Shown here one piece after another: positions 1-47,364 of a stretch of DNA of 47,364 nt. Positions within the stretch are counted from its first letter, which is position 1, and every line of letters starts with the position of its first letter. The notes under the pieces are model-generated. The model did not search any database. It was not told the DNA's origin and saw only the letters and a list, made by a program, of their open reading frames with translations. The position numbers were made by a program, and so were the translations under genes. Origin of the DNA: a virus; IMG/VR virus record IMGVR_UViG_3300021090_001099, positions 1-47,364 of that record. One strand, 5' to 3'.

Positions 1-1
1 G

Positions 2-271
2 GACGTCGATTCCGAGGCCGGGGCGATCGCCTGGGCGGGCGCAGGCGAGGCGCTGCGGGCGAAGCTGAGCCCGGAGGCCTGGGCGACCTGGATCCGCCCA
101 TGCCGCGGCCTGTACGTGCGCGAGGGGCGGATCGTGGTGGAGGTGCCGGACGCGCGCTTCCTGGATTGGATCGGGCGGAACTGGAGCGCGCACCTGCAGT
201 GGGCGGCCGCGGAGACCGGCCTCGAGGGAGTGGACCTGGTCGTGGCGTCGGCGCCGGCGATCGCCGGCTAA
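2..271 (+). CDS. Replication initiator, 3' fragment (DnaA domain-I-like C-terminus)
   Basis: The reading frame is open from the window edge and ends with TAA at 269-271. It encodes 89 residues that match the C-terminus of the full initiator at 43601-44785 almost exactly. The segment has the pattern of a DnaA N-terminal (domain I-like) module: LSPEAWATWIRP, then a strand, then VPDARFLDWIGRNW. In DnaA this module contacts helicase or helicase loaders, so a role in recruiting the host helicase is inferred. The gene is truncated only by the window edge. Only a few bases differ from the other copy, for example R instead of S in the VPDARF segment. Confidence 0.8.
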   Translation, partial: DVDSEAGAIAWAGAGEALRAKLSPEAWATWIRPCRGLYVREGRIVVEVPDARFLDWIGRNWSAHLQWAAAETGLEGVDLVVASAPAIAG

Positions 272-280
272 GGAGGGGAC

Positions 281-490
281 ATGGACATCAACACCGGTCG
301 GATCTACCCGGGCCTCGCCGCGGCGATCGCCGCGGGGGTCCGCGCTTCCGACCTCGTCACGGGCGAGAAGCGGACCCTCCTCAAGCTGAAACGCAAGATC
401 CGGATGGCCAGCAGGTGCGCGAACATGCACCGGCGCGCGGGCCGGCGAATCCAGAAGCTGAGCCGGAAGAAGAACCGTAGGCGAAAGTGA
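281..490 (+). CDS. Small basic protein, unknown function
   Basis: A 69-residue protein with ATG at 281 and an AGGAGGGG ribosome-binding site at 270-277. The C-terminal half is very rich in Lys and Arg and ends KKNRRRK, so binding to nucleic acid is possible but not shown. Its stop codon overlaps the GTG of the ATPase gene at 487, so the two are probably translationally coupled. The corresponding place in the second copy (44786-44787) has no such gene, which marks it as an accessory insertion in this version of the module. No family recognised. Confidence 0.6.
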   Translation: MDINTGRIYPGLAAAIAAGVRASDLVTGEKRTLLKLKRKIRMASRCANMHRRAGRRIQKLSRKKNRRRK

Positions 491-2256
491 GCCGACTGCT
501 CCAAATCGCCCAGGACTTCGCGCTCCCGGTCGACCTGGTCACGCAGACGATCGGCGTGCTAGCCAAGCGCGGGGCGGGGAAGTCCTACACGGCCGCGGTG
601 CTCGCGGAGGAGATGCTGGGCGCGTCCCTCCCCGTGGTGATCGCCGACCCGGTGGGGGTGTTCTGGGGGCTGCGGGCGGCCGCCAACGGCCGGGATCCCG
701 GCCTGCCCATCCTGATCATGGGCGGGGACCACGGGGACGTGCCGCTCGAGTCCACCTCCGGGGAGATGGTGGCGGACCTCGTCGTCGACGAGCGCGTCTC
801 CGCCGTGCTCGATCTCTCCCGCCTCCGGAAGGGCGAGCAGACGCGCTTCATGGAGATCTTCGCGGAGCGGCTCTACCAGCGGAACCGCCAGGCTCTCCAC
901 CTGGTGCTCGACGAAGCCGACGCCTTCGCGCCCCAGAGGCCGATGCCGGGCGAGCAGCGGCTCCTCGGGGCGATCGAGGACCTGGTCCGCCGTGGCCGCG
1001 CCCGGGGGATTGGCCTCACGCTCGTCACGCAGCGCGCGGCCGTGCTGAACAAGAACGTCCTGACCCAGGCCCAGGTCCTCGTGACGCTGCGGACGATCGC
1101 CCCCCAGGACCGCGATGCGATCGACGCCTGGGTCGAGGTGCACGGCACGAAGGAGCAGCGGCGCGAGCTCATGGAGTCCCTGGCCGCGCTGCCTATCGGG
1201 GAGGCCTGGTGGTGGTCCCCGGGATGGCCCACGGGCGAGGGAATCTTCAGGCGCGTCAAGATCCGGCGGCGCCGCACCTTCGACAGCTCGGCGACCCCGG
1301 AGGTGGGCGCGGCCGCGGCGACGCCGAAGAAGCTGGCCGCGGTCGACCTCGAGGGGATCCGGAAGCGCATGGCGGCCACCGTAGAGCGGGCCCAGGCCGC
1401 GGATCCCCGCCGGCTTCGGGCCCGGATCGCCGAGCTCGAGCGCGAGCTCGCGAAGAAGCCCGCGGCCGCGGCGCCGCCGCCGAAGCGCGTGGACGTGGAG
1501 ATCATCAAGCCGCGGCAGGTCCTCCGTCTCGCCGCGGTGGCGCGGATCCTCGAGCGGCGGGTCACCGCCACCGAGGAGGCCGCGCGCGTCGTCCGTAGTA
1601 CCTGGCAGGAGCTCGACGCGGCGCTGAAGCGCGCGCGGGCGCTGCCGGGCGAAACCCGCGTGAGCCGGGCCGTACCCGGGGCGCCGGGGCTGGGAGTGTC
1701 CGGGGTGGGACCCGGAACGCGTTCCCAGGCCCCGGTCGCCCCGGCTCCTCCTCGAGGCGGCCGCCCCACGTTCCGCGAGGCCTCCGCCGTGCTCACCGGG
1801 CCCGAGCGGAAGATCCTGACGGCGCTCGCTCAGCACGGCGCACGGACCACGCGGGCCCTGGCGCTGCTCACCGGCTACGCGGCAGGCGGTGGCGCCTTCC
1901 GGAACCCCCTGAGCGCGCTGCGCGCCCGGGGCCACGTCGACGGCCGCGAGACGGTGCGCATCACCGACGGCGGCGCCGCCGTGCTTGGCGCCTGGGAGCC
2001 TCTGCCGACCGGCCAGGAGCTCCTCCGCTACTGGCTCGAGCACCTGTCGGGTCCGGAGCGCAAGCTGCTCGCCGGCGTGGCCGACGCCTGGCCCGGCTCG
2101 ATCACCACGGAGGCGCTCGCGGCCGCGACCGGGTACGAGGCCTCCGGCGGCGCCTTCCGCAATCCGCTGAGCCGGCTACGCACGCTCGACCTGGTTGACG
2201 GCCGCGGCGAGCTGCGCGCGGCCGACGAGCTCTTCGAGCCCCCGGTGGCCCCTTGA
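487..2256 (+). CDS. HerA/FtsK-type P-loop ATPase with tandem C-terminal winged helices (left copy)
   Basis: 589 residues, GTG start overlapping the previous stop. A DUF87/HerA-like ATPase core is seen: Walker A GVLAKRGAGKS near residues 23-33, Walker B LHLVLDEAD near 137-145, and a TQR motif downstream. Then follows a short coiled coil (IAELERELAKK), a Pro/Gly linker, and two repeated winged-helix modules (about 430-500 and 510-585) sharing LTGYAAGGGAFRNPLS and ATGYEASGGAFRNPLS. Such proteins are usually hexameric DNA pumps or helicase-like ATPases that pair with nucleases. Here a nuclease lies two genes downstream. Role in phage replication or recombination is inferred. The N-terminal domain is much more diverged from the second copy than the C-terminal half. 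Confidence 0.75.
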   Translation: MSRLLQIAQDFALPVDLVTQTIGVLAKRGAGKSYTAAVLAEEMLGASLPVVIADPVGVFWGLRAAANGRDPGLPILIMGGDHGDVPLESTSGEMVADLVVDERVSAVLDLSRLRKGEQTRFMEIFAERLYQRNRQALHLVLDEADAFAPQRPMPGEQRLLGAIEDLVRRGRARGIGLTLVTQRAAVLNKNVLTQAQVLVTLRTIAPQDRDAIDAWVEVHGTKEQRRELMESLAALPIGEAWWWSPGWPTGEGIFRRVKIRRRRTFDSSATPEVGAAAATPKKLAAVDLEGIRKRMAATVERAQAADPRRLRARIAELERELAKKPAAAAPPPKRVDVEIIKPRQVLRLAAVARILERRVTATEEAARVVRSTWQELDAALKRARALPGETRVSRAVPGAPGLGVSGVGPGTRSQAPVAPAPPRGGRPTFREASAVLTGPERKILTALAQHGARTTRALALLTGYAAGGGAFRNPLSALRARGHVDGRETVRITDGGAAVLGAWEPLPTGQELLRYWLEHLSGPERKLLAGVADAWPGSITTEALAAATGYEASGGAFRNPLSRLRTLDLVDGRGELRAADELFEPPVAP

Positions 2257-2546
2257 GCCAACCGAAATGGTTCGTGCTGAACCACGCGCAGGTAGAGAAG
2301 GGCCGGCGCACACTGCGATGGAGGGTGACATCGCTCGACGGCGGCACGCTCGGCCATGTGGAGTGGTACAGCCCATGGCGCTGCTATTTCCTTCCCTCCG
2401 TGGAGACCCTCTTCGAGAAGACCTGCCTGCGGGACCTGGCTGACTTCTGCGAGCAGGCCACCCGCGACCACATCGAGGGCCTCCGGCGCAAGCGGGAGGC
2501 GGAAGGCGGGCCGCGGGCTGCCAGCCACGGAGGGAAGGACGAATGA
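2253..2546 (+). CDS. Conserved small phage protein (VEWYSPWRCYFL motif)
   Basis: 97 residues, TTG start at 2253 overlapping the ATPase stop (TTGA). The protein carries GHVEWYSPWRCYFLPS followed by FEKTCLRDLADF. A similar pattern of a KWYGPWR-type segment followed by a Cys-Leu-x-Asp helix is familiar from small proteins encoded next to replication and recombination genes of many temperate phages. Function is unknown. It ends ATGA-overlapped with the nuclease gene at 2543. The second copy of the module goes directly from ATPase to nuclease and lacks this gene. Confidence 0.65.
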   Translation: MSQPKWFVLNHAQVEKGRRTLRWRVTSLDGGTLGHVEWYSPWRCYFLPSVETLFEKTCLRDLADFCEQATRDHIEGLRRKREAEGGPRAASHGGKDE

Positions 2547-2953
2547 AGCTGCAACCGCCCCGCTTCGACCGGCAGGACCCACACGATCTGTGGGCTCGCG
2601 AGGAGGCCGCGGCAAAGCGCAGGAAGCTCGAGGACCTCTTCGCCCACCAGCTGATGGCGCACGCCCTGCCCAAGCCCGAGCGGGAGTACCGCTTCCACCC
2701 CACGCGGATGTGGCGGCTCGACTTCGCATGGCCGGACTACGGGCTACTGGCGGTCGAGATCGACGGGGCGTCCTGGATCCAGGGCCGGCACAACCGCGGC
2801 GCCGGCTTCGAGGCCGATGCCGAGAAGCTCAATGCCGCGGCCGCCCTCGGGTGGCGCGTCTTCCGCTACACCGCCACGCGGGTGCGGTCAGGCTGTGCGG
2901 TCATGGAGGTCCGGGTGCAGCTCGAGCGCGCCGCCTGGAACCGGATCCCATGA
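2543..2953 (+). CDS. PD-(D/E)XK-like endonuclease (left copy)
   Basis: 136 residues. The core reads WRLDFAWPDYGLLAVEIDG, then GRHNRGAGFEADAEKLNAA and WRVFRYTA. This fits the small PD-(D/E)XK/VSR-like nucleases found near phage replication genes: the D of LDFAW and the E of VEIDG are the expected metal ligands, with the GRH and GFEAD segments as family markers. It probably cuts branched or damaged DNA during replication or recombination. That role is inferred from family and position. It is paralogous to the protein at 46593-47006 (shared HRFDP/YRFHP, RFDFAWP and GFEADAEK segments). ATG overlaps the preceding stop. Confidence 0.75.
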   Translation: MKLQPPRFDRQDPHDLWAREEAAAKRRKLEDLFAHQLMAHALPKPEREYRFHPTRMWRLDFAWPDYGLLAVEIDGASWIQGRHNRGAGFEADAEKLNAAAALGWRVFRYTATRVRSGCAVMEVRVQLERAAWNRIP

Positions 2954-3165
2954 AGCGCCCGGAGGCCACCGATGAAGCCGTGCGAATCCTGCGTGTGCAG
3001 ACGATCCCGGCGCTCCGGGCGTCCGGAGGCGGTGGGCACGCCGACGCGATCGAGACGGTGCTGGCAGAGCTGGATCGTCGCGGCAGGTTCATGACCATGC
3101 TGGCCGAGGCAAAGGCCGTGGTTGAGGCCAAGCTGGACGATCTGCAAGCCGAGGGGCACTGGTGA
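2950..3165 (+). CDS. Small helical protein, unknown function
   Basis: 71 residues, ATG at 2950 overlapping the nuclease stop. Mostly alpha-helical in appearance with an acidic/basic mix, no cysteines and no membrane segment. It is followed by an overlapping GTG at 3162. No family recognised. Its place in a tightly overlapped run supports it as a real gene. It has no counterpart at the same place in the second module, where a different 70-residue protein (47003-47215) follows the nuclease. Confidence 0.55.
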   Translation: MKRPEATDEAVRILRVQTIPALRASGGGGHADAIETVLAELDRRGRFMTMLAEAKAVVEAKLDDLQAEGHW

Positions 3166-3362: not shown

Positions 3363-3494
3363 CGTAGACTCGTCGGTGCAGGCATCGGCCTGAGCGCCCG
3401 GCAGCACCCGCGGGCGCGATCGTGCAGGCCGAGCGCTTGTCGGGCCCCGGTCGCAACCACGGGGGAGAGCGAGACGCTTTCTCTCGGGGGTTGA

Positions 3495-4067
3495 ATGGAC
3501 GGGGGCGCCGGCGCCACGGAGAGACACACGGCCGCGGACTGGCGGCCGCTCGTGACGGAGGCCGTCGCTGTCCTCTGGCCCGCCCTCCCGGACGGCTGGC
3601 GCTGGATCCTCGCGCAGTGCCAGATCGAGAGCGCCGGCGACCCGCGGGCGGTGAGCCCCTCCGGGGCCGAGGGCCTCCTGCAGCTCATGCCAGCCACGGC
3701 GGCGGAGCTGGGTGTCGAGAACCCCTTCGACCCGGCGCAGAACCTCCGCGGCGGCATCACCTACCTGAAGCGCCAGTACGACGCGCTCGGCGAGGTGCCG
3801 GTGCACCTCGACCGGCTGCTCTGGAGCTTTGGCTGCTACAACGGCGGGCGCGGCTACTTCGACTTCAACGGCGACGTGGCGAACACGTGCCTCGAGCTCG
3901 CGAAGCGTGACGAGCCGCGGGCCTGGTCGCGCTGGGTGGTGGGGCGCTACTGGCTGATGCACCGGGACCTGGTGGTCCACGGCCGCCGGCCCGACTACCG
4001 CCAGATCTGGACGTACGTCGACCGGATCCGGTCTCTCGCGGCCGGCCTGGGCGCGGTGACTACGTGA
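3495..4067 (+). CDS. Lytic transglycosylase endolysin (SLT/GH23-like)
   Basis: 190 residues, ATG at 3495 with a GGGGG stretch just upstream. The SLT signature is clear: [28 protein letters not shown], with the catalytic Glu in QIES (about residue 43), then the [14 protein letters not shown] and SFGCYNGG segments usual in this fold. These enzymes cleave the MurNAc-GlcNAc bond of peptidoglycan with formation of anhydro-MurNAc. There is no signal peptide, so it needs a holin or similar route across the inner membrane. Holin-like genes lie downstream at 7256-8212. The very same start (MDGGAGAT) begins again at 47339, at the other end of the window. Confidence 0.9.
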
Positions 4068-7567: not shown

Positions 7568-7568
7568 A

Positions 7569-7850: not shown

Positions 7851-7864
7851 GAGGAGGACTGACC

Positions 7865-13826: not shown

Positions 13827-14300
13827 ATGAGGGGACGTAAGCCCGCGACGACCGCCGAGAAGATCGCGAAGGGCGAGACCCGTCCCAGCCGCGTGAACTA
13901 CGACGAGCCGGACGTGCCATCGGCCAACGTCACCTCGGCGCCCAAGGAGCTGCGCGGTGCCGGGTTTCGGCTGTGGCGCGATCACGCGCAAGCGATGAAG
14001 GACTCGGGCCAGCTGCGCGCGACCGACGTGCCGTTGTTCGTGGCTCACTGCAGGACGGCGACGGATCTCGAGTTCTGGGAAAAGGAGAAGTCGAAGCGCG
14101 ACCTCGACCGGGCCGCGCGTATCCAGATCCAGCGGACGGTCAACCAGCTTGGCAGCCTTTACCTGCGCCAGGCCGCCGAGCTCGGCATGACGTCGGTCGC
14201 CCGCTCGAGGGTGAAGACGGTCACGAAGGCGCCGGTCGAGAAGCCGAAGCACGAACGATTCTTCAAGGGGCTCCGTGGTATCAGCGGCGGCAAAGCGTAG
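13827..14300 (+). CDS. terS: Terminase small subunit (P27-like)
   Basis: 157 residues, ATG at 13827 after a GGGGCGGGGG stretch. Opens with RGRKPATTAEKIAKGETRPSR, the usual start of P27-family small terminases, followed by a helical DNA-binding and oligomerisation region (RLWRDHAQAMKDSGQLRATDVPLFVAHCRT) and a C-terminal helix. It binds the packaging site and loads the large subunit. The large terminase gene starts inside its 3' end (GTG at 14275), giving a 26-base overlap and probable translational coupling. Confidence 0.85.
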   Translation: MRGRKPATTAEKIAKGETRPSRVNYDEPDVPSANVTSAPKELRGAGFRLWRDHAQAMKDSGQLRATDVPLFVAHCRTATDLEFWEKEKSKRDLDRAARIQIQRTVNQLGSLYLRQAAELGMTSVARSRVKTVTKAPVEKPKHERFFKGLRGISGGKA

Positions 14301-16140
14301 GACGGCCAAGCCTGGTCGAGGCCCGCGGCTCCCGTGGTGGGGAGCCGGAAAGGCCCCGCATCTTCGTTGGCCTGGTGTGACGATCGAGATCCCGGCCGTC
14401 TGGTCGAGGGCCCGCAAGCGATGGGAGAGCCCGGACGGACGGTACTATTTCGACGCCGAGGCAGCGGACAAGGCCTGCGACTTCTTCCCGACGTTCCTCA
14501 CTCACCACATTGGCGAGTTCGCCGGCGAGGCCTTCGAGCTGCTCGACTATCAGCGGCTGCTAGTCGTGCGTCCGCTCTTCGGATGGAAGGACGCGCGCAC
14601 CGGCTTCCGGCGTTTCCGCTTCCTGTTCCTCTTCGTGCCCAAGGGCAACGGCAAGTCGCCGCTCGGCTCCGGCCTGGGGCTCTACCTGCTGTTGTGCGAC
14701 GACGAGCCGGCGGCCGAAGTGTTCTCCGTGGCCACCGACAAGGACCAGGCGAAGGTCGTCCATGAATCGGCGAAGATCATGGTCGAGCAGTCGGCCGACC
14801 TGTCCGAGCTCGCCCAGGTCCTGCGCGACTCGATCTACTGCCCGACGTCGCGCGGCTTCTACAAGGCGATCGCTTCGGATGCGGCCGGCAGCCACGGCGG
14901 CCGACCGCACGGCGTCATCATCGACGAGTTCCACACGCAGCGGAATCGCGACCTCTTCGAGGCCCTGCGGAAGTCGATGCTGAAGCGACGCCAGCCGATG
15001 CTCGTCATGCTGTCGCATGCCGGCGACGACGACGAGTCCATCTGCTTCGAAGAGTACGAGGTCGCGAAGCGAGTCCTGAAAGACGCGTCGATCGATCCGG
15101 CCTACCTGCCGGTCATCTTCGAAGTCGGGCCAAAGGAAGACTGGACGCGCGAGCGCACGTGGAAGAAGGCCAATCCTGGCTATGGGATCACGATCAACCC
15201 GGTGATCTTCGCCGCCGAGTGCAAGGCGGCACAGGACACCCCGCGCAAGCGCAACGACTACCTAAAGTTCAACTGCAACCGTTGGGTCAACCAGGCGACG
15301 GCGTGGCTGCCCAGCGAGTGGTGGGACGCATGCGAGGGTCCGTTCCCGGAGGGGTACGAGAGCCTCGAGTGTGCGGCGGGCCTCGACATGGCGCAGAAGA
15401 TCGACCTGGTCGCCTTCCACGTGGTCCTGCGCCAGCCGATCGAGGTCGAGCTCAAGATAGAGGTCACGACGGCCGACGAGGAGACCCTCGAGCCGGAGAA
15501 ACGCGAGGTCTCGCTCAACTTCCGCGTGTATGGCGTGCCCTTTTTCTGGCTGCCTGAGGAGACGGTGCGCGATCGCGAGCGCGAGGGTTTCACGTCCTAC
15601 CGGGACTGGGCGGCCGCCGGGTTGCTCACGATCACGGAGGGCGCGTCTATCGACTACGACCGCGTGTTTCAGGACATCACCAAGAAGATCGCGCCACGCT
15701 TCCCGCTGCTCAAGCAGGGGGAGATCGGATACGACCCGGCCTTCGCCACGGACATCGCGAACCGCCTGCGCGACAAGGCCGGCTTCAAGACGGTCGAGGT
15801 CCTCCAGAACTACCAGCACCTGAACGAGCCCTGCCAGGTCTTCGAGGCGCTCGTCAAGTCGAAGCGCTGGGTCCACGACGGCAATCGGCTCATGCGCTGG
15901 AACGTCGAGAACGTGGCGGTCAAGCGCGACGACGCCGGCCGCATTCGCCCCGTGAAGCCGCGGCGGGCCCACAAGAAGATCGACGGCGTGGTGTCCGGGA
16001 TAATGGGGCTCTCTCGGCTGACTGCACAGTCGGCGCCGAAGCAATCCAAGTACGCCGGCGACGACGACGTGATGCCCTTCGTAGCAGGCCTCGGCCGCTA
16101 TGAGGAGAGGGATCGAGATGCTCCGCCGACTACTGCCTGA
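14275..16140 (+). CDS. terL: Terminase large subunit
   Basis: 621 residues, GTG start at 14275. ATPase centre: Walker A-like VPKGNGKS at residues 121-128 and Walker B GVIIDEFH at 213-220, followed by LRKSMLKRRQPMLVMLSHAG. The nuclease half begins at AAGLDMAQKIDLVAF and continues to YDPAFATDIANRLRDKAGF and HKKIDGVVSGIMGLSR, as in Terminase_1/HK97-type enzymes. It pumps DNA into the prohead and cuts it at the packaging site. Length is within the usual range. Position after HNH and the small subunit and before portal is standard. Confidence 0.95.
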   Translation: MVSAAAKRRTAKPGRGPRLPWWGAGKAPHLRWPGVTIEIPAVWSRARKRWESPDGRYYFDAEAADKACDFFPTFLTHHIGEFAGEAFELLDYQRLLVVRPLFGWKDARTGFRRFRFLFLFVPKGNGKSPLGSGLGLYLLLCDDEPAAEVFSVATDKDQAKVVHESAKIMVEQSADLSELAQVLRDSIYCPTSRGFYKAIASDAAGSHGGRPHGVIIDEFHTQRNRDLFEALRKSMLKRRQPMLVMLSHAGDDDESICFEEYEVAKRVLKDASIDPAYLPVIFEVGPKEDWTRERTWKKANPGYGITINPVIFAAECKAAQDTPRKRNDYLKFNCNRWVNQATAWLPSEWWDACEGPFPEGYESLECAAGLDMAQKIDLVAFHVVLRQPIEVELKIEVTTADEETLEPEKREVSLNFRVYGVPFFWLPEETVRDREREGFTSYRDWAAAGLLTITEGASIDYDRVFQDITKKIAPRFPLLKQGEIGYDPAFATDIANRLRDKAGFKTVEVLQNYQHLNEPCQVFEALVKSKRWVHDGNRLMRWNVENVAVKRDDAGRIRPVKPRRAHKKIDGVVSGIMGLSRLTAQSAPKQSKYAGDDDVMPFVAGLGRYEERDRDAPPTTA

Positions 16141-16324: not shown

Positions 16325-16326
16325 CC

Positions 16327-32749: not shown

Positions 32750-32777
32750 CTGGCACCCGTTTTGGCACCCGTCGCTC
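32750..32777 (+). repeat. Integrase arm-type repeat, P arm
   Basis: This 28-bp stretch contains TGGCACCCGT twice, 12 bp apart (separated by TT), followed by CGCTC. An identical 28-bp copy occurs at 32958-32985. The pair flanks the tRNA-like attP core, at about 135 bp on this side. Tandem direct repeats in both arms around a core are the standard form of arm-type binding sites of tyrosine integrases. Confidence 0.7.
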
Positions 32778-32885
32778 CGGTGTACGCCGTCTCGGCTCTT
32801 CCGAAGCCGATTCGCGTATGACCCGTTCTGAGAGTACTTTAGGGGAGAATCAGGGAGGGGGCGGGAACGGCTGGGACCCCCCTGA

Positions 32886-32914
32886 ATAGGTTCGATTCCT
32901 ACCCGCTTCCGCCA
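32886..32914 (+). other. attP: attP core: tRNA-Sec (selC) 3' end
   Basis: Positions 32886-32914 read as a tRNA 3' end: T stem ATAGG, T loop TTCGATT, CCTAC, then CCGCTTCC, discriminator G and CCA. Eight rather than seven bases stand between T stem and discriminator, and the ending CTTCCGCCA pairs with a GGAAG start; both are marks of bacterial selenocysteine tRNA. No anticodon arm is present upstream, so this is not a complete gene. Phages that integrate into tRNA genes carry such a 3' fragment to restore the gene. The integrase gene is 293 bp away. Confidence 0.75.
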
Positions 32915-32949
32915 AATGTCGTGCCGCGACAGGTACTTAGAGAGCAGCC

Positions 32950-33210
32950 TCACCACGCTGGCACCCGTTTTGGCACCCGTCGCTCTTCCCGTGTCTTCCC
33001 TGCGACGAGGCCTTCCTTGGCCGTCCACTCGCCATTCGGTGACCAACATGCGCAGCACCGGACGCGTCGTGTCGTGAGCGAATACCAGACTGGCCTGCAG
33101 GAGAGCCTTCGGCAGAGCTCGCAGACGCCGGCTGCCTGGAAGCGCGAGTTGAACAGGTTGCGCACGCGAACCCACTCGCCTTCGTGAACGATCTTCCAGC
33201 GCCTACTCAT
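32950..33210 (-). CDS. Small zinc-ribbon protein coupled to integrase
   Basis: 86 residues, ATG at 33210 overlapping the integrase stop as ATGA, so probably translationally coupled. Sequence starts SRRWKIVHEGEWVRVRNLF and carries CELCRRLSC and VRCCACW, two Cys pairs that look like a zinc ribbon. Function unknown. Its position between integrase and attP fits an accessory factor for integration or excision, but no excisionase-like helix-turn-helix is visible. Confidence 0.6.
   Translation of the reverse strand: MSRRWKIVHEGEWVRVRNLFNSRFQAAGVCELCRRLSCRPVWYSLTTRRVRCCACWSPNGEWTAKEGLVAGKTREERRVPKRVPAW
32958..32985 (+). repeat. Integrase arm-type repeat, P' arm
   Basis: Exact 28-bp copy of 32750-32777 with two TGGCACCCGT units, starting about 44 bp from the tRNA CCA. 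It overlaps the 3' end of the zinc-ribbon gene at 32950-33210. A single further CTGGCACCCGT lies at 34704-34714 in the switch promoter. Confidence 0.7.
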
Positions 33211-34265
33211 CGAGGCCTCTTCTTCTCGACGTAGGCGGCCGTCCGCCCGAGTGCCGCCCGGATGTCGACCTCGTCGACGATGTTGTAGCGGTCGAAGGTC
33301 GAGCGGGTCTTGTGGCCGGAGATCTTCATGGCCACGGTGAAGTCGACGCCGGCGCGCACCATGTTGCGCAGCGCCGAGCGGCGCAGGTCGTACGGGAGGA
33401 GCGTCAGGGGCAGCCGCGCCTCCTTGAGCGCCAGGCGCCACATCTTCCGGTAGTCCTTCACCGGCTGGCCGTCCTTCCCGTGAGCGCTGCGGTGGAAGAC
33501 GAGCTCGCACCCGAGGCGCCGGCTCTTCAGCCGCCGGCGGACGATCCGAAGCAGGGGGCCCGTGAGGGCGATCGTCCGGCCCTCGCGCGTCTTCGCCGCC
33601 CGCGGGTCGAGCCTCATCGCCAGGCCCTCGAGGTCCACCATCTCCCAGGTGATCTGCCGGGCCTCGCCGGGCCGCATCCCCGTCCACCCGCACCACTCCA
33701 CGAAGTCGCGCACGTCGGGGTCTGGGATGGCCGCCACGAGGCGGGAGAACTCCCCGGGGCCCACGAACCCCTGCCGGGCGTTCTGGACGCGCAGGAGGGG
33801 GATGTGGGGCACCACGGCCACCTTCGGCGGCGTGTGCCGAGCGGCGAGGCGATAGGCCTGGCGCAGGAGCTCGCAGCGGCGGTTCACGGTGGCCGGTCGG
33901 CGCCCCTCGTCCAGCCAGGTCTTCTGCGAGCGCTCGATCGAGGCGGTGTCGAGCTCGAGGGCGGGGCAGTGGCCGAGCTCGCTGCGCACGGCCTTGAGCG
34001 TCGATCGGGCCTTGTCGAGGGACGCCACCCCCCGCACCTCGAGGTGGACCAGCAGCTCGTCGAGCAGCTCGCCCACCGTCACCCGCCGGACCTGGGGGGT
34101 CACGTAAGTCCCGAGGTCCCGCTTCCGTCGGAGGGCGAGGAGCCGCTTGGCCGCCACCTCGGGGTCCCGGGTCTTCAGCGTCTCCCGCACCTTGCGGCCG
34201 CGCTGGTAGGTGACGGCGTAGAAGATGCCGTTCCGGCAGACGAGGTAGCCGTCGCCCTGGGCCAT
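33207..34265 (-). CDS. int: Tyrosine recombinase integrase
   Basis: 352 residues, minus strand, ATG at 34265. N-terminal arm-binding domain (GYLVCRNGIFYAVTYQRGRKVRETLKT), core-binding helices (about 65-160), catalytic domain with R198 (TGMRPGEARQITW), K225 (AAKTREGR), the box II segment PYDLRRSALRNMVRAGV, then SGHKTRSTFDRY with H318 and Y327. The His usually found three residues before the box II Arg is Tyr292 here. It recombines attP with a host tRNA gene. The gene points at attP and is followed by a coupled zinc-ribbon gene. The 173-base gap upstream (34266-34438) has no gene and no clear promoter. Confidence 0.92.
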   Translation of the reverse strand: MAQGDGYLVCRNGIFYAVTYQRGRKVRETLKTRDPEVAAKRLLALRRKRDLGTYVTPQVRRVTVGELLDELLVHLEVRGVASLDKARSTLKAVRSELGHCPALELDTASIERSQKTWLDEGRRPATVNRRCELLRQAYRLAARHTPPKVAVVPHIPLLRVQNARQGFVGPGEFSRLVAAIPDPDVRDFVEWCGWTGMRPGEARQITWEMVDLEGLAMRLDPRAAKTREGRTIALTGPLLRIVRRRLKSRRLGCELVFHRSAHGKDGQPVKDYRKMWRLALKEARLPLTLLPYDLRRSALRNMVRAGVDFTVAMKISGHKTRSTFDRYNIVDEVDIRAALGRTAAYVEKKRPR

Positions 34266-34438
34266 GGGGTTTACCTTCTCGACGCCACCGGATCGAACGC
34301 ACTACGCAACCAGTGGGGGCACGAAAGTTGGGCAGCGAATGGACCCTCAACGGCGGGGGACCGGGGTAGCGTCTCGCTCACGGGCATCTTGGAGCCGCGT
34401 CCCTCCGCTGGCTCAAAGGCCAGAAGGAGGGCAGTGTG

Positions 34439-34627
34439 CTACGCGCCTCGCTTCTTCAGGTATTCGTCGAGGGCCGCGATCGCGACCTCCTGCAACGTGG
34501 TGCGGTACTCCACGGCGTAGGTCCTGGCCCGCTTGCGAATGGCCAGCGGCGCCCTAAACGAAACTCCCGAATCGCGTTTCAGCTCGGGCAGCGATGGCTG
34601 GAACTCGGCGTGAGTGCTCTTCTTCAT
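34439..34627 (-). CDS. Ribbon-helix-helix repressor-like protein
   Basis: 62 residues, minus strand, ATG at 34627. The C-terminal two thirds read VSFRAPLAIRKRARTYAVEYRTTLQEVAIAALDEYLKKRG, the pattern of a ribbon-helix-helix protein (strand, helix, turn with TTLQE, helix) related to ParG/Arc and many antitoxins. No toxin partner is adjacent. It is divergent to the regulator at 34713 across a promoter region with two ATGCATG sites, so it is the best candidate for the lysogeny repressor. The predicted start of transcription lies at or one base before the ATG. Confidence 0.7.
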   Translation of the reverse strand: MKKSTHAEFQPSLPELKRDSGVSFRAPLAIRKRARTYAVEYRTTLQEVAIAALDEYLKKRGA

Positions 34628-39159: not shown

Positions 39160-39795
39160 ATGAGCTCCAGCGCGAACGCGCGCGAGCGCCTGGTCCACCT
39201 CGTCCAGAAGCTCGAGCGCCTCGAGGAGGCGAAGCAAGCCGCGGCCGAGGAGCTCCGGGACGCCTTCGTCGACGCGAAGAGGGCCGGCTACGACCCGAGC
39301 ACCCTGAAGACCGTCCTTCGCCTCCGCAAGCTGACGCCGGAGGAGCGCGAGGAGCGACGGGCGCTCGAGGCGATCTACCTCGCCGCCCTCGGCATGCTCG
39401 AGGGCGGCCCCCTGCCCGACGAGGCGCGCCGACGGCTCGACGAGCAGGACAGCGCCCCGCCGAAACCCGAGCGCAGCTCCGGGCCGCAGGCGAAGGGGGC
39501 GCCAGCCCGCAAGCCGGCCGAGGCGCCGGCGCCCCCGCCCCCGCCACAGATGAGGATGAGCCTCAAGGATCCGAAGGAGGCTCGCCAGGAAGGCCGTGAC
39601 GCGGCCGCGGCAGGAAAGCGGATCTACGACAACCCGTTCCCCGCCGGTGACCCGTGTCGCGCCGCCTGGGACGAGGGCTGGTGCGCGCAGCTGAAGTCCC
39701 ACGGCATGGATACCCCCGCCGCCTACCAACGGCGTACGAAGCCTGACCAGACGGACAAGGCCGCCGGCGCCGGCGAGAAGAAGGGGGCCGCTTGA
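39160..39795 (+). CDS. GapR (DUF2312)-like protein fused to a ribosome modulation factor-like domain
   Basis: 211 residues, ATG at 39160 with GAGAGGAAC upstream. Residues 5-80 match GapR: NARERLVHLVQKLERLEEAKQAAAEELRDAFVDAKRAGYDPSTLKTVLRLRKL read in parts. GapR binds overtwisted DNA ahead of moving polymerases. After a Pro/Ala-rich linker (about 95-135), residues 139-178 read EARQEGRDAAAAGKRIYDNPFPAGDPCRAAWDEGWC, the pattern of RMF/CrpP-like proteins (RMF binds ribosomes and forms inactive dimers). Such a fusion could link DNA topology control and translation control during infection, but this is inference. Confidence 0.75.
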   Translation: MSSSANARERLVHLVQKLERLEEAKQAAAEELRDAFVDAKRAGYDPSTLKTVLRLRKLTPEEREERRALEAIYLAALGMLEGGPLPDEARRRLDEQDSAPPKPERSSGPQAKGAPARKPAEAPAPPPPPQMRMSLKDPKEARQEGRDAAAAGKRIYDNPFPAGDPCRAAWDEGWCAQLKSHGMDTPAAYQRRTKPDQTDKAAGAGEKKGAA

Positions 39796-40718
39796 TGGCC
39801 GGGCCGATCCGGGCCGTCGAGGCGCGGGAAAAGGACACCACTGCCGCCGCGCTCGATGAACTCCGACAGTACGCCGAGATCCTCCGGCCGCAGGACGCCG
39901 ACGAGCCGATCCTCGCCCCGACGGTCGCGCACGCCGTCCACGAGTGGATGGTCGAGCTCAACTACGCGCAGGAGCTCGAGGCAGCCAAAGTGCAACCACG
40001 GCGCCTGGCGCTCCTCTACGGGCCTCCGGGCACGGGCAAGACGACGCTCGCTCACCACCTGGCGTGCCGCCTGGGGCTCCCGCTGGTGGCCGTGCAATCC
40101 GAACGGATCTTTGGGCGGTACCTGGGCCAGACCGGGGAGAGGCTAGGCAATCTCTTCGACCTGCTGCAGGGCGTGGAGAACCACTGCGTCCTCCTCCTCG
40201 ACGAGTTCGACGCGCTGGGCGGCAAGCGGATTGCGGACACGGGCGGTGGTGGCGCCGCCCAGGAACGCAACCAGGCCCTCACCGTCATGCTCCGGCGGAT
40301 CGAGGGCTTCCGGGGTGTGGGGCTCGCGGCGACGAACACGAAAGACGCCCTCGACTCGGCGATGTGGCGGCGCTTCGGCCTGCAGATCTCCGTGGACCTG
40401 CCGGGAGAGAACGAGCGCTTCGCCATCATCCGCAAGTACGGGCTCCCGTTCGACCTGGAGGACTCGGCGATCGACGTCCTGGTACAGGTGACGCGCGGCT
40501 GCAGCCCGAGCCTGCTGCGGCAGCTGATGGAGGGGATGAAGCGCACCCTCGTGCTGGCGCCGAGGCTCCACCTCGACGTGTCGAGCCCCGTACGGGTCTT
40601 CGCCCACGTCCTGGCGTCGATCTCGCCGCCGCCCGAGATGGAGCAGCCGCCGCTGTGGGCCGACGCCGGCGCCGTTCACAAGGTCAAGGGCATCACGTGG
40701 CCACCGGGCCGCGCATGA
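39795..40718 (+). CDS. AAA+ ATPase
   Basis: 307 residues, ATG at 39795 overlapping the previous stop. Walker A GPPGTGKT (residues 76-83), Walker B CVLLLDEFDAL (131-141), a sensor-1-like AATNTKDALD and the arginine pair in MWRRFGLQI, followed by the small helical lid (AIIRKYGLPFDLEDSAIDVLVQVTRGCSPSLLRQLMEGMKR). This is a classical AAA unit like those of unfoldases and remodelling ATPases. In phage early regions such proteins may load helicase or remodel replication complexes. No protease or nuclease domain is attached. Confidence 0.85.
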   Translation: MAGPIRAVEAREKDTTAAALDELRQYAEILRPQDADEPILAPTVAHAVHEWMVELNYAQELEAAKVQPRRLALLYGPPGTGKTTLAHHLACRLGLPLVAVQSERIFGRYLGQTGERLGNLFDLLQGVENHCVLLLDEFDALGGKRIADTGGGGAAQERNQALTVMLRRIEGFRGVGLAATNTKDALDSAMWRRFGLQISVDLPGENERFAIIRKYGLPFDLEDSAIDVLVQVTRGCSPSLLRQLMEGMKRTLVLAPRLHLDVSSPVRVFAHVLASISPPPEMEQPPLWADAGAVHKVKGITWPPGRA

Positions 40719-42099: not shown

Positions 42100-42120
42100 G
42101 CCAAGAAGGACGTCCTGAAG

Positions 42121-42861
42121 ATGCAGACAGAGACATCCCCGGGTGGCCGCCGTCGCCGGCGGCCGTCGCAGCGCCAGCCGAAGACCGAGAAGCCGTGCCG
42201 CGACTGCGGCCTTGCCTTCACGGCCGGGCCGTTCGCGAAGTGGGGGCTGTGCTGCAGGTGGAAGCACCGCGGCCCGAAGAAGCGCCAGTTCACGCCCGAG
42301 CAGGACGCAGTCATCCGCGAGCGCTACGACTCGAGGGTGCGCGGCCGGGCAAGCGAGGTGGCCCGCGCCATCGGCCTTCCGGGCTGGGTGGTGAAGCGCC
42401 GGGCCGGCGAGCTAGGTCTCTCGCATCCCCGGGGAGTGTTCAAGGAGTGGAGCGAGGAGGAGATCGTCTTCCTCGAGGAGAACGTGGGCGTCCGCCACGT
42501 GCACTGGATCGCGCAGCGCCTCAAACGGTCGACGGTCTCCGTGATCATGAAGCTGAAGCACCAGCACGTCAGCCGGCGCGTGCGCGACGGATGCACCATG
42601 CGGGACCTCGAGCTCGCCATCGGCCTAGACCACCGCCGCATCGAGCATCTCGTCGCCTCGGGGAAGCTGCGGGCGAAGCACCGGGGCGAGGTGCACAAGG
42701 AGGCCTGGCGCTTCGCCGACGACGACGTCCGAGACTTCGTGCGCCGGTACCCGACGGCGTTCCGCCTCGACCGCGTTGACCAGCTCTGGTTCCTCGACCT
42801 GGTCTTCAAGGGGAGGATCGGCGGCGGGGCGCGCGCGGCGGGCGAAGGAGAGGCGGCGTGA
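42121..42861 (+). CDS. DNA-binding protein with zinc motif and helix-turn-helix domains
   Basis: 246 residues, ATG at 42121 with AAGAAGGA upstream. A basic N-terminus is followed by CRDCGLAFTAGPFAKWGLCC (possible zinc site), then two SANT/GcrA-like three-helix units: FTPEQDAVIRERYDSRVRGRASEVARAIG and EWSEEEIVFLEENVGVRHVHWIAQRLKRS. A third helix-turn-helix (TMRDLELAIGLDHRRIEHLVASGKLRAK) and a C-terminal helix with LDRVDQLWFLDLVFKG follow. Likely an early or middle transcription regulator. Overlaps the next gene by GTGA. Confidence 0.7.
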   Translation: MQTETSPGGRRRRRPSQRQPKTEKPCRDCGLAFTAGPFAKWGLCCRWKHRGPKKRQFTPEQDAVIRERYDSRVRGRASEVARAIGLPGWVVKRRAGELGLSHPRGVFKEWSEEEIVFLEENVGVRHVHWIAQRLKRSTVSVIMKLKHQHVSRRVRDGCTMRDLELAIGLDHRRIEHLVASGKLRAKHRGEVHKEAWRFADDDVRDFVRRYPTAFRLDRVDQLWFLDLVFKGRIGGGARAAGEGEAA

Positions 42862-43604
42862 GCGCGAGCCCGGGCCCGCAGATCCCCTTCCGGGTCCGAC
42901 GCGGGCTTCCGGCGCCGGAGGCCTTCGCGCACGGCACACGCGCGCGCTACGTGACCGGCTGCCGCTGTGAGGACTGCAGGGCCTCGAACCGCCGCTACTA
43001 CCACGAGCGCGAGGCGCGCGGCCGGGCGCTCGCCGCCGAGATCTCGGCCCCTGCGATGCCGGCGCCCCAGGAATGGACCGCCCCCGACGGAGCGAGGCGG
43101 ATCCGCGTCTACAAGCGGGCCTGCCCGGGTGTCGAGGGCGAGCCCTGTCCTCTCCGCGCGCACCTACGCAGGGACAGCAAGGGCGGAGTCTGTCGAGCCT
43201 GCCGCCACCGGCTCGCATGGAACGGTCTCGTCAGTACCGCCGCCGCGAGCGCGCACGTCCGGAAGCTCGGCTATCAGGGAGTGGGCTACAAGTCCGTGGC
43301 CGCCGCGGCGAGCGTCGGCGTCCTGACTGTCTGGAAGATCCGGTCCGGAGAGCGGATGTGGATCCGGGCGGCCACCGAGCGGCGGATCCTGGCGGTGGAC
43401 GCCGAAGCCCGGGCCGACGCGTCGACGGTGCCGGCGGGATCCACCTGGCGGCTCGTCCGGCTCCTCCTCGACGAGGGGTACACGAAGGCGCGGCTTGCCC
43501 GCGAGCTCGGGGCCCAGACGCCCGCCCTGCAGCTGGGCCGCCGCCGCGTCCTGGCCATCACGGCCGTGCGGGTCCAGCGCCTCTACCACCGGCTCACGGC
43601 ATGA
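42858..43604 (+). CDS. DNA-binding protein with CxC..C zinc-like motif and HTH
   Basis: 248 residues, GTG at 42858. Starts with HGTRARYVTGCRCEDCRASNRRYYHERE, a motif well known from phage and actinobacterial helix-turn-helix proteins. A middle part has further Cys pairs (CPGVEGEPCPLRAHL, CRACRHR), and two helix-turn-helix-like segments follow (YKSVAAAASVGVLTVWKIRSGERMWI and YTKARLARELGAQTPALQLGRRRVLAI). Directly before the replication initiator, overlapped by ATGA. It may regulate replication or late genes. Confidence 0.65.
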   Translation: MSASPGPQIPFRVRRGLPAPEAFAHGTRARYVTGCRCEDCRASNRRYYHEREARGRALAAEISAPAMPAPQEWTAPDGARRIRVYKRACPGVEGEPCPLRAHLRRDSKGGVCRACRHRLAWNGLVSTAAASAHVRKLGYQGVGYKSVAAAASVGVLTVWKIRSGERMWIRAATERRILAVDAEARADASTVPAGSTWRLVRLLLDEGYTKARLARELGAQTPALQLGRRRVLAITAVRVQRLYHRLTA

Positions 43605-44785
43605 AGCGAGGCACCCCCACCCACCCGAAGACCCTCGCGCTCGCGGCGGCCCTCGGCCTCCCGCGGTGGGGGGCGGTGGGGATTCTCGAGAGCCTCTGGC
43701 ACTTCGGGGCGTCATACGCCCGCCGCGGCGACATCGGCCGCCACAGCGACGCCCAGATAGCCATCGGGATTGGCTGGCAGGACGACGCTCGGCGCCTGGT
43801 GGCAGCGCTCGTCGACACCGGCTGGCTCGACCGCTGCTCGTGCCACCGGCTGCGGATCCACGACTGGCCGGTCCATGCGGACCGGGCCGTGGCGAAGACG
43901 CAGGAGGTCGTGCGCATGGGCTGGCTAGAGTGCTACGCGCCTCGCCAGACCACTGTAGCCCAGGACCCCGGGGGACCCGCCGGCAACGGCGATGGATCCG
44001 GGGAGGGAGCGATCCCCGAAGATGACGGCGGGGACTCGCGAGGGGGCTCTTCGTCAGACGGCTGGCTCGAGAGCCACGCGCCTCGCCAGGACCCCGGGGG
44101 GCCCGCCGGCAACGGCGATGGATCCGGGGGACGTACGCACGCGTGTCACACGCGTGTCGCACGCGTGGGTCCTGCCGGTGCCGGAGCCGGTGCCGGAGCC
44201 GGAGCCAACGGACCCCCCTATCCCCGCCGGCTGGCGCCGACGGGGGATCTGTCGATCGAGGCGCAGCGCCGCCGGGCGGTCAGGTACTGGTGCAAGCTCG
44301 GGGGACGGCCTGGGCGCCAGGACCGGAGGCAGGTGTACGAGGCGCTCGTGTCGGGGCGTCCCCTCGCCCAGGTCCTCGGCTCGATCGCGTGCAGGGTGCG
44401 GGACGACCTCGTCGCCAGAGGGCGCCTCGCGCCCACAGACCCCTGGCCGCCCCCCGGGCTGGCCCCGTTCGACCCTCCAGCCACACCGCCGCCTGAAGCG
44501 CAAGCCTCGCCGGCGGACGTCGATTCCGAGGCCGGGGCGATCGCCTGGGCGGGCGCAGGCGAGGCGCTGCGGGCGAAGCTGAGCCCGGAGGCCTGGGCGA
44601 CCTGGATCCGCCCATGCCGCGGCCTGTACGTGCGCGAGGGCCGGATCGTGGTGGAAGTGCCGGACGCGAGCTTCCTGGACTGGATCGGGCGGAACTGGAG
44701 CGCTCACCTGCAGTGGGCGGCCGCGGAGACCGGCCTCGAGGGAGTGGACCTGGTCATGGCGTCGGCGCCGGCGATCGCCGGCTGA
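43601..44785 (+). CDS. Phage replication initiator with internal iterons
   Basis: 394 residues, ATG at 43601. The N-terminal 95 residues form a winged-helix-like domain (KTLALAAALGLPRWGAVGILESLWHFGASYARRGDIGRH, then AIGIGWQDDARRLVAALVDTGWLD). A Gly/Asp/Ser-rich linker follows and encodes a repeated GWLE.HAPRQ...DPGGPAGNGDGSG block and the iterons. A second helical domain (LSIEAQRRRAVRYWCKLGGRPG) and a C-terminal DnaA domain-I-like module (LSPEAWATWIRPC...VPDASFLDWIGRNW) end the protein. Probably binds the origin within its own gene and recruits the host helicase, as lambda O does. The helicase itself is not encoded in the window. Confidence 0.75.
   Translation: MKRGTPTHPKTLALAAALGLPRWGAVGILESLWHFGASYARRGDIGRHSDAQIAIGIGWQDDARRLVAALVDTGWLDRCSCHRLRIHDWPVHADRAVAKTQEVVRMGWLECYAPRQTTVAQDPGGPAGNGDGSGEGAIPEDDGGDSRGGSSSDGWLESHAPRQDPGGPAGNGDGSGGRTHACHTRVARVGPAGAGAGAGAGANGPPYPRRLAPTGDLSIEAQRRRAVRYWCKLGGRPGRQDRRQVYEALVSGRPLAQVLGSIACRVRDDLVARGRLAPTDPWPPPGLAPFDPPATPPPEAQASPADVDSEAGAIAWAGAGEALRAKLSPEAWATWIRPCRGLYVREGRIVVEVPDASFLDWIGRNWSAHLQWAAAETGLEGVDLVMASAPAIAG
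43919..44130 (+). repeat. Direct repeat of about 70-85 bp inside the initiator gene
   Basis: Unit A at 43919-44004 and unit B at 44060-44130 share GGCTGGCT.GAG..., CACGCGCCTCGCCAG or its variant, and GCCGGCAACGGCGATGGATC. They encode a repeated GWLE-x2-APRQ ... DPGGPAGNGDGSG motif. The units frame the linker directly before the 11-bp iterons, so they may be part of the origin or result from linker expansion. Confidence 0.65.
44138..44170 (+). other. Three tandem 11-bp iterons: candidate replication origin
   Basis: CACGCGTGTCA (44138-44148), CACGCGTGTCG (44149-44159) and CACGCGTGGGT (44160-44170) stand head to tail at exactly 11-bp spacing, about one helical turn, each with the palindrome CACGCGTG. 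They sit inside the linker-coding part of the initiator gene, as the lambda iterons do in gene O. No AT-rich unwinding region is evident nearby in this GC-rich sequence, which weakens the call. Confidence 0.55.
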
Positions 44786-44787
44786 GG

Positions 44788-46596
44788 ATGGATCCCTTGG
44801 ACAAACTGCAGATCGGGCAGGATGGCTTTTCCCTGAAGGTCGAGAGCTTCGAGGACGTCGTCGCGATCCTCGGCCGTCGTGGGCGCGGGAAGACGACGAC
44901 TGCCACGGTAATCGTCGAAGGGCTCCATGCCGCCGGCGCGCGCTTCGTGGTGGTGGACCCGGTTGGCGTCTGGTGGGGGCTGAAGAGCAGCCGCGACGGA
45001 CGACGGCCGGGGATCCCAGTCGTGCTGATGGGCGGCGAGCACGGGGACGTGCCGCTCGCGCCTGAGTCCGGCGAGATCATCGCGGACTTCGTCGCGGACC
45101 CCACATCGCCCTCGGTCGTGCTCGACTTGAAGCGCTTCACTCAGGGCGAGATGGTCCGCTTCATGACGGCGTTTCTCTCACGCCTCTACCACGTCAACCC
45201 GGACAAGTCGCTCCACGTAGTGCTAGACGAGGCCGACCAGGTGGCTCCCCAGCGCCCGATGCCCGGCGAGCAGGCGATGCTCGGCGCTGCACAGCGCGTC
45301 ACGAAGCTCGGGCGAGCAAAGGGGCTACACCCTATCCTCATCACACAGAGGCCCGCCACGCTATCGAAGAACGTCCTCACCCAGGCGGGGTTGCTCATAT
45401 CGCACGCGGTCACGGGTCCCCAAGATCGCAATGCTATTGACGACTGGATCAAGGCAAACGCGGAGGAGGGCGAGCGGGAGACGTTCCTGGCCGAGCTCTC
45501 CGGCCTGCCGCGTGGCACAGCCTACTTCTGGAGTCCCGACCTCGCGCCAGACGGACGGCAGCGGGGAAAGGACGACCCGCCACTCTTCCGCCAGGTGGCC
45601 GTGCGCGATCGAGAGACGTTCGACTCGTCAGCAACCCCCAAGCGCGGCGAGGCGGTGAAGCCGAAGGCCCTGGCCGAGGTCGACCTCGAAGCGCTGAAGG
45701 GCCGGATCGCCGCGACGATCGAGAAGGCGAAGGCCCAGGACCCACGGGAGCTCCGGAAGCGGATCGCTGAGCTCGAGCGCGAGCTCGCTAAGAAGCCCGC
45801 GGCGCCGTCGCAACGGGTCGAGGTCGAGATCATCAAGCCGCGGCAGCTCCTCCGTCTCGCCGCGGTGGCGCGGATCCTCGAGCGGCGGGTCACCGCCACC
45901 GAGGAAGCCGCGCGCGTCGTCCGTAATACCTGGCAGGAGATCGACGCTGCGCTGAAGCGCGCGCGGGCGCTGCCGGGCGACCCCAATGCCCATGCCGTGA
46001 GCCGCGTACCCGGGGCGCCGGGGCTGGGAGTGTCCGGGGTGGGTCCCGGAACGCGTTCCCAGGCCCCGGTCGCCCCGGCCGTTCCTCGAGGCAGCCGCTC
46101 CACAATCGCCGAAACCGCCGCCATGCTCACCGGGCCCGAGCGGAAGATCCTCACGGCGCTCGCGCAGTACGGCACGCGACCCACGCGGGCCCTGGCGCTG
46201 CTGACCGGCTATGCGGCGAAGGGAGGCGGCTTCCGGAACACGTTGAGCGCGCTGCGCACCCGCGGCCACGTCGACGGCCGCGAAACGGTGCGCATCACCG
46301 AGTCCGGCGCCGCCGTCCTCGGCGCCTGGGAGCCGCTGCCGACCGGACAGGCACTCCTCCGGTACTGGCTCGAGCATCTGCCGGGCCCGGAGCGCAAGCT
46401 GCTCGCCACCGTGGCTGACGCCTGGCCTGGTTCGATCACCACGGAGGCGCTCGCGGCCGCGACGGGGTACGAGCCTTCGGGCGGCGGCTTCCGAAATACG
46501 TTAAGCCGGCTGCGCACGCTCGACCTGATCGAGGGCCGCGGCACGCTGCTCGCTGCCGACGAGCTCTTCGAGCCCCCGGTGGCGGTGGCCCCTTGA
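44788..46596 (+). CDS. HerA/FtsK-type P-loop ATPase with tandem winged helices (right copy)
   Basis: 602 residues, ATG at 44788 two bases after the initiator stop. Walker A AILGRRGRGKTTT near residues 26-38, Walker B LHVVLDEAD at 142-150, and ITQRPATLSKNVLTQ downstream. Coiled coil IAELERELAKK and two C-terminal winged-helix repeats (LTGYAAKGGGFRNTLS, ATGYEPSGGGFRNTLS) as in the left copy. ATPase domains of the two copies are only moderately similar, while the stretch from the coiled coil to the C-terminus is nearly the same. The gene is followed with a four-base overlap by the nuclease gene. Confidence 0.78.
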   Translation: MDPLDKLQIGQDGFSLKVESFEDVVAILGRRGRGKTTTATVIVEGLHAAGARFVVVDPVGVWWGLKSSRDGRRPGIPVVLMGGEHGDVPLAPESGEIIADFVADPTSPSVVLDLKRFTQGEMVRFMTAFLSRLYHVNPDKSLHVVLDEADQVAPQRPMPGEQAMLGAAQRVTKLGRAKGLHPILITQRPATLSKNVLTQAGLLISHAVTGPQDRNAIDDWIKANAEEGERETFLAELSGLPRGTAYFWSPDLAPDGRQRGKDDPPLFRQVAVRDRETFDSSATPKRGEAVKPKALAEVDLEALKGRIAATIEKAKAQDPRELRKRIAELERELAKKPAAPSQRVEVEIIKPRQLLRLAAVARILERRVTATEEAARVVRNTWQEIDAALKRARALPGDPNAHAVSRVPGAPGLGVSGVGPGTRSQAPVAPAVPRGSRSTIAETAAMLTGPERKILTALAQYGTRPTRALALLTGYAAKGGGFRNTLSALRTRGHVDGRETVRITESGAAVLGAWEPLPTGQALLRYWLEHLPGPERKLLATVADAWPGSITTEALAAATGYEPSGGGFRNTLSRLRTLDLIEGRGTLLAADELFEPPVAVAP

Positions 46597-47006
46597 GCCT
46601 CACCAATCCCCGCCGGTCTCGGAGTGCGCGCCGCGAGGTCACGCCCGCCGAGCTCTGGGCGCGCGAGGAGGCCGCAGCGAAGCGGCATGCCCTCGAGACT
46701 CTTCTCGCCTGGCACATCAAGACCTGGGGCCTGCCGGTACCGGTCAGGGAGCACCGTTTCGATCCTGTGAGGCGGTGGCGGTTCGACTTCGCCTGGCCGC
46801 CTTTCATGGTGGCGGCCGAGGTGGAGGGGCTGACGCGCGAGGGCGGCCGCCACCAACGGATCGCAGGGTTCGAAGCCGACGCGGAGAAGTATGTGGCCGC
46901 GCAGCTCGCCGGCTGGACCGTCCTCCGCTTCACCGCGAAACAGGTCCACTCGGCCGACGCGGTGCGGGCGATCGAGATCGCGCTCGAGCGCGCGGCCCGG
47001 CGATGA
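46593..47006 (+). CDS. PD-(D/E)XK-like endonuclease (right copy)
   Basis: 137 residues, TTG at 46593 overlapping the ATPase stop (TTGA). Core: HRFDPVRRWRFDFAWPPFMVAAEVEGL, GRHQRIAGFEADAEKYVAAQLAGWTVLRFTA. The D of RFDFAW and the E of AEVEG are the expected active-site acids. Similar to 2543-2953 in the middle but with a different N-terminus (SLTNPRRSRSARREVTPAELWAREE). Direct coupling to the ATPase gene here, without the intervening small gene, supports a functional ATPase-nuclease pair. Confidence 0.78.
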   Translation: MSLTNPRRSRSARREVTPAELWAREEAAAKRHALETLLAWHIKTWGLPVPVREHRFDPVRRWRFDFAWPPFMVAAEVEGLTREGGRHQRIAGFEADAEKYVAAQLAGWTVLRFTAKQVHSADAVRAIEIALERAARR

Positions 47007-47215
47007 GCGGTCCCCCCGCGGTTTCACAGGCGGACCGAGAGCGCGCGCACCGACTTCTCGATCGAGTCCTCGACCTCATGGCCACGCGCGCGCTCTCGGG
47101 GGGAGTACTCCGCCTCGACGCGGATCGTCAGGGCCGGCTCCACCTGAAGGCCCATGACCTGGTCGTGGACGTCGAACGGCTCTTGACCCTGACGGAATTG
47201 GAGCGCAACCTCTAG
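47003..47215 (+). CDS. Small helical protein, unknown function
   Basis: 70 residues, ATG at 47003 overlapping the nuclease stop. Helical N-terminus (SQADRERAHRLLDRVLDLMATRAL), a short beta pair (GVLRLDADRQGRLHLKAHDLVVDV) and a final helix. Not similar to the small proteins at the same map position on the left (2950-3362). Last gene before the terminator. Confidence 0.55.
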   Translation: MSGPPAVSQADRERAHRLLDRVLDLMATRALSGGVLRLDADRQGRLHLKAHDLVVDVERLLTLTELERNL

Positions 47216-47289
47216 CCGGTCGCACCTCCCCGCGCCGGCCCGCCAGCGCTCCGGCGGGTACAGGGAGCCCGGGATACGCGGTCGCAGAA

Positions 47290-47335
47290 GCCCCCGGACC
47301 TCATGCCGAAGGAATCGGCGAGGTCGGGGGCTTTT
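47290..47335 (+). terminator. Rho-independent terminator at the end of the early/replication operon
   Basis: GCCCCCGGACCTC (47290-47302) pairs with GAGGTCGGGGGC (47320-47331) with one bulged G, the loop itself forms GCCGA/TCGGC (47305-47309, 47315-47319), and TTTT follows at 47332-47335. It separates the early/replication operon from the lysis genes. The left copy of this border (3363-3494) lacks a comparable structure. Confidence 0.85.
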
Positions 47336-47338
47336 CGC

Positions 47339-47364
47339 ATGGATGGGGGGGCGGGCGCCACCGA
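47339..47364 (+). CDS. Start of a second lytic transglycosylase gene (truncated by window end)
   Basis: ATG at 47339 four bases after the terminator T run begins MDGGAGAT, identical to the first eight residues of the transglycosylase at 3495 but with different bases. Only 26 bases are inside the window. It shows that the map begins to repeat here. Confidence 0.7.

Follow-up and report, generated by a model that had tools for sequence, protein, structure and literature searches.

Gene content and probable integration site of the window

The virus record IMGVR_UViG_3300021090_001099, taken over its entire length of 47,364 bases, has a G+C content of 69% and contains no N; this whole stretch is referred to here as the window. 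When compared with an annotated phage collection of 50,697 records, the first 8 kb of the window matched 2 records. All features described below lie on the plus strand, except the integrase gene. The terminase large subunit (14275-16140, phrog_9) is followed by the portal protein (16246-17898, phrog_12) and the head maturation protease (17917-18831, phrog_53). Further to the right are a GapR-like DNA-binding protein, recognized by a domain match (39160-39795), an AAA ATPase (39792-40718), a regulator (42121-42861, phrog_323, 'D5-like') and a replication initiator (43601-44785, phrog_9474) with a DnaA_N domain. The GapR-like protein also has a weak match to ribosome modulation factor, below its cut-off, and the DnaA_N domain is situated near the C-terminus of the initiator, at residues 316-374.

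A tyrosine integrase is encoded on the minus strand (33207-34265; PF00589, E 4.5e-18; phrog_1). A plus-strand open reading frame (ORF) at 33312-34520 was dropped as a gene since the integrase occupies that stretch. Next to the integrase we found a candidate attP core (32857-32916) that contains the 3' end of a tRNA-Sec-like sequence (32857-32910). This shortened tRNA-like stretch stands between two exact 28-base direct repeats, 208 bases apart (32750-32777 and 32958-32985), each of which carries TGGCACCCGT twice and might be an arm site for the integrase. ARAGORN predicted no tRNA in the window and no Rfam family matched at its gathering score; the tRNA-Sec remnant was found with the E-value threshold only (E 0.0014, 28.7 bits, below the gathering score of 47). 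Thirty bases of the core (32887-32916) are identical in another IMG/VR contig, L194, where they adjoin an integrase of 66% identity. Moreover, a 26-base core occurs with 2-3 differences in 2 of the 5 genomes searched, in both cases within a tRNA-Sec gene. These sequence matches make the tRNA-Sec gene (selC) the probable counterpart of the phage attachment site, and together the integrase and the tRNA-Sec-like attP point to a temperate phage.

Two diverged copies of one region at the ends of the window

The original prediction that the two ends of the window are versions of a single region that have diverged is confirmed, for 1-2953 and 44515-47006. Comparison of the window with itself returned four blocks on the same strand and in the same order: 1-277 with 44515-44791 (97.1% identity), 646-971 with 44956-45287 (68%), 1307-2259 with 45642-46599 (84%) and 2584-2938 with 46649-47000 (65%). 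Both the left (L) and the right (R) copy carry the 3' end of the initiator gene, a HerA-like ATPase, a phrog_503 protein, a small ORF and the start of a transglycosylase gene, in that order. The L copy opens within the initiator, of which it holds the 3'-terminal 89 codons (2-271) and, with them, part of the DnaA_N-like domain that was detected in the complete R-side gene; it continues with a basic ORF of 69 residues (281-490), the ATPase (487-2256), an ORF of 97 residues (2253-2546), the phrog_503 protein (2543-2953) and an ORF of 71 residues (2950-3165). On the R side, the initiator is followed by the ATPase (44788-46596), whose N-terminal part differs from that of L, the phrog_503 protein (46593-47006; 51% identity to the L copy) and an ORF of 70 residues (47003-47215). 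The offset from L to R is 44,514 bases at the initiator, 44,301 at the ATPase, 44,050 at the phrog_503 gene and 43,844 at the transglycosylase, in agreement with the unit of 43.8-44.5 kb that had been proposed. This drop keeps pace with the two extra ORFs of the L copy, 281-490 and 2253-2546, neither of which has a counterpart on the R side.

The prediction had also described the repeated genes as initiator end, ATPase and nuclease. The first two assignments hold, while the third is weakly founded: phrog_503 is annotated as 'unknown function', the restriction-endonuclease-like Pfam matches of the protein (DUF559 and MTES_1575) fall below their cut-offs, and a sequence search of the PDB returned no match for it. 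Our comparison likewise bears out the statement that the ends are not identical and do not form a simple circular overlap. Besides the extra left ORFs, the N-terminal parts of the ATPases share 48% identity, the small ORFs after the phrog_503 gene (2950-3165 and 47003-47215) are dissimilar, and the two ends of the window have no exact suffix/prefix overlap. The window is thus at most a strain-composite, over-run contig, and not a contig with a plain end repeat.

Sequence patterns at the left and right tips

We found that the left tip of the window, 1-126, matches 44515-44640 exactly, and that this is the longest exact same-strand repeat in the window among repeats of at least 24 bases. Past this run, mismatches fall at 127, 142, 155, 166, 190, 242, 270 and 275 (8 in 151 bases); if divergence is even, a clean run of 126 bases has a probability of approximately 0.001 at this density. 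In a de Bruijn graph, contigs that begin at the point of divergence between two strains open with k-1 or k shared bases. The left tip fits a graph branch at k=127, for which 126 equals k-1 (126 is itself not an odd k). A chimera, in which the R end came from a more distant phage and was misjoined at the common 126 bases, would also place the join at a k-mer-sized stretch shared by both ends. Yet identity in the initiator remains approximately 95% for another 151 bases, and gene order is collinear up to the transglycosylase start, so that we consider such a chimera very improbable; its main distinction from a join between two strains is the degree of relatedness of the second phage. According to the COBRA paper, end overlaps at breaks caused by repeats equal maxK for metaSPAdes and MEGAHIT or maxK-1 for IDBA_UD (PMC10914622). 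Similarly, the CheckV paper reports that end repeats cluster at k-mer lengths, and its authors mention that adapting the tool could allow it to detect artefactual chimeras of closely related viruses (PMC8116208).

The right tip does not visibly rejoin the left end. Instead, the last 26 bases of the window (47339-47364) restart the transglycosylase gene found at 3495-4067 (SLT, PF01464), as had been predicted, and are cut by the contig end. They agree with the start of that gene at 22 of 26 bases and 8 of 8 residues, all four changes being synonymous, and the next best place in the window reaches 18 of 26. As a control, 12 of 300 random 26-mers from the window reached at least 22 matches elsewhere, repeated ends included. 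Since random 26-mers can reach this score, it is the synonymous nature of the changes, along with the position expected for the gene, that supports the argument for the right tip.

The two ATPase alleles

Both ATPases match PF01935 and PF05872 above the curated cut-offs, which places them among HerA-like proteins. The R ATPase has weak matches to solved HerA chains (best E 1.8e-6) and one match in the annotated phage collection of 50,697 records, MW202482.1. Identity between the two copies is 48% over residues 1-280 of L and 85% from residue 331 onward. The N-terminal part of R is 80% identical to that of a relative, L021, while the N-terminal part of L is 70% identical to that of another, L025. 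The C-terminal part, which holds an internal repeat in the self-comparison of the window, shares at most 42% identity with any of 62 other proteins (from 66 loci).

We compared the two parts of the ATPase across 1953 pairs among 64 sequences, after 63 pairs had been dropped for too few columns. As a rule, identity is lower in the C-terminal part, with a median difference of -18 points, bearing in mind that its alignment is rough for distant relatives. L and R form the sole pair of the 1953 in which the C-terminal part is the more alike by at least 20 points. Plain divergence after a duplication does not explain this, since the part that is normally less conserved is here the more conserved one. 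This pattern points to recombinant alleles, exchanged between strains inside the ATPase gene, rather than to slow divergence of duplicates; a similar pattern could arise by gene conversion between tandem copies. Both alleles look real as sequence.

Contig ends of relatives

We compared the contig ends of 43 of 75 other virus records, taking 8 kb from each end of 13 whole records and 5 kb for the other 30. The 32 records left out are mostly shorter than 30 kb or longer than 85 kb, and also include G003 and G027. Self-overlaps of at least 46 bases were found in 16 of the 43 contigs, imperfect in 8 of these 16. Exact suffix/prefix overlaps of 55-144 bases occur in 8 of the 43: 127 bases in G017, G041, G051 and G064, 123 in G048, 144 in G042, 74 in G061 and 55 in G025. 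Short end overlaps of 21-22 bases are present in two further contigs of the 43 (G033 and G067), and 25 of the 43 have no end overlap. The imperfect overlaps run up to the right tip in 7 of the 43 (G016, G019, G021, G031, G038, G047 and G066). At the left tip, the imperfect cases open with exact runs of 126 bases (G016, G038), 127 (G021, G047), 106 (G019), 108 (G031), 115 (G054) and 15 (G066); G031 has an exact run of 127 bases at its right end, and three of the eight (G019, G054 and G066) have no run of 126-127 bases at either tip. Contigs of these relatives thus frequently overlap themselves, in some cases through a variant, and several show the k-mer-sized mark seen in the window.

The ends of G054 (L151, L152) look much like those of the window. 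An overlap of 252 bases at 98% identity stops 670 bases short of the right tip, and diverged sequence is then followed by a block at 87%.

These data bear on whether the window might instead derive from a tandem pair of related prophages integrated at the same host site, with the L module in a left phage running to an att junction near 32.9 kb and a right phage running from its integrase to the R module. The integrase and the attP-like site do separate the L copy from the R copy, in the order expected of a tandem junction, but one excised circle predicts the same order; a tandem double lysogen would give a window of the same appearance, with its outer att sites beyond the two ends. Such an arrangement requires two strains in one chromosome. 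From among the ORFs of the window, 45 translations were compared with PHROGs, and none of these was recognised as a gene of a bacterial host; the k-mer-sized tip overlap also occurs in self-overlapping relatives and does not require a lysogen. We hold a tandem lysogen to be less likely because of the lack of a host gene among those translations and because the ends follow the pattern of self-overlapping circles; overall, its probability appears low.

Position and copy number of the ATPase gene in relatives

In each of the 57 records that contain the ATPase gene, it is found at a single place; many of these records are fragments in which a second copy could have been missed. Either the ATPase or a neighbouring gene served to recruit these records, which comprise 55 of 55 recruited by the ATPase and 2 new ones among 3 of 12 others. 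In eight records with 2-3 ATPase matches (G023, G033, G034, G046, G047, G061, G066 and G068), the matches are adjacent pieces of one gene. Sixteen of the 57 self-overlap by at least 46 bases and look like closed circles. Among 14 records found by the terminase or by the 9275 ORF, 12 of them shorter than 30 kb, none gave an ATPase match. A contig of a single strain, L or R, was not retrieved via the R ATPase, the initiator or an exact 45-base initiator pattern, in a search that may omit near records.

The neighbours of the ATPase were readable in 3 of 19 sequences examined. The order is GapR-like gene, AAA gene and ATPase in G016 and G073, and regulator, ATPase and terminase in G027. In the window, the R ATPase comes after the GapR-like gene, the AAA gene, the regulator and the initiator, and the L ATPase precedes the terminase. 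Going by this gene order, both copies appear to fit the common slot of relatives.

These observations weigh on a third explanation, that one phage genome truly holds two diverged copies of the module. In keeping with it, the ATPase and the phrog_503 protein each have an open reading frame and matches to their families in both copies. However, no relative with two copies was found among the 57 records, and the more conserved C-terminal part of the ATPase runs against the family trend, although gene conversion could mimic this. A tandem duplication of the module only is also disfavoured because a transglycosylase start stands behind both copies, while such a duplication predicts one only. A genuine duplication hence seems as improbable as the chimera.

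Discussion

Our data make it very likely that the contig is an over-run of the circular map of a temperate phage of approximately 44.5 kb, which re-enters the module of a second strain. The population would consist of a temperate tailed phage whose genome, of approximately 44.5 kb, is circular or circularly permuted, in at least two strains that differ between the 3' end of the initiator and the transglycosylase. The contig would start at a graph branch within the initiator and take the initiator-ATPase-small protein module of strain L, then round the common approximately 41 kb (3495-44514) and return to the branch. There it would take the branch of strain R and stop 26 bases into the transglycosylase of that strain. 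We infer that the L and R alleles reside in different molecules and that the assembler made the join. Assembly is the probable source of the apparent duplication, given that the tip overlap is k-mer-sized, relatives have a single copy and a transglycosylase start follows both copies. The original prediction had left tandem prophages, a join between two strains and duplication of the replication module unranked; the 126-base tip, the single place of the ATPase in 57 of 57 records, the overlaps in relatives and the repeated transglycosylase start favour the two-strain join, and the second and last of these speak against duplication.

If read literally, the contig would assign two replication modules and 47 kb to a phage of approximately 44.5 kb. 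An end test, in which a k-mer-sized exact tip match is followed by divergence, can flag composite contigs that have no exact end repeat. The same test also catches two natural alleles, here with an apparent domain swap inside one ATPase gene. It is conceivable, if rather unlikely, that the phage population keeps the HerA-like motor, the N-terminal part of the ATPase, as an exchangeable cassette. Such a cassette would account for a common, lineage-specific C-terminal part (85%), N-terminal parts that belong to two distant groups (48%) and different small neighbour genes, and host defences or partner proteins might perhaps select for motor swapping. Among the matches listed for HerA domain swaps, no paper title addressed such swaps in phages.

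An over-run contig of this sort is ordinary in kind, while the ATPase domain swap is mildly interesting. Like the end-repeat contigs described in the CheckV and COBRA papers (PMC8116208, PMC10914622), the window returns to its start and has a k-mer-sized exact tip overlap; unlike them, its second pass follows a diverged allele for approximately 2.85 kb rather than the same bases. As in the strain bubbles and mosaic variants described in the Phables paper (PMC10563150), alternative paths between common flanks within one population would divert or break the contig. The window also resembles a circular genome in which two variants of the closing region halted assembly (PMC7111523), in that the break falls at a variable region. 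In contrast to both of these cases, the window is known from one contig alone. With regard to HerA-like ATPases, both copies in the window share with this family above-cut-off matches to PF01935 and PF05872, and they differ from the other HerA-like relatives examined in a C-terminal part that has an internal repeat and at most 42% shared identity.
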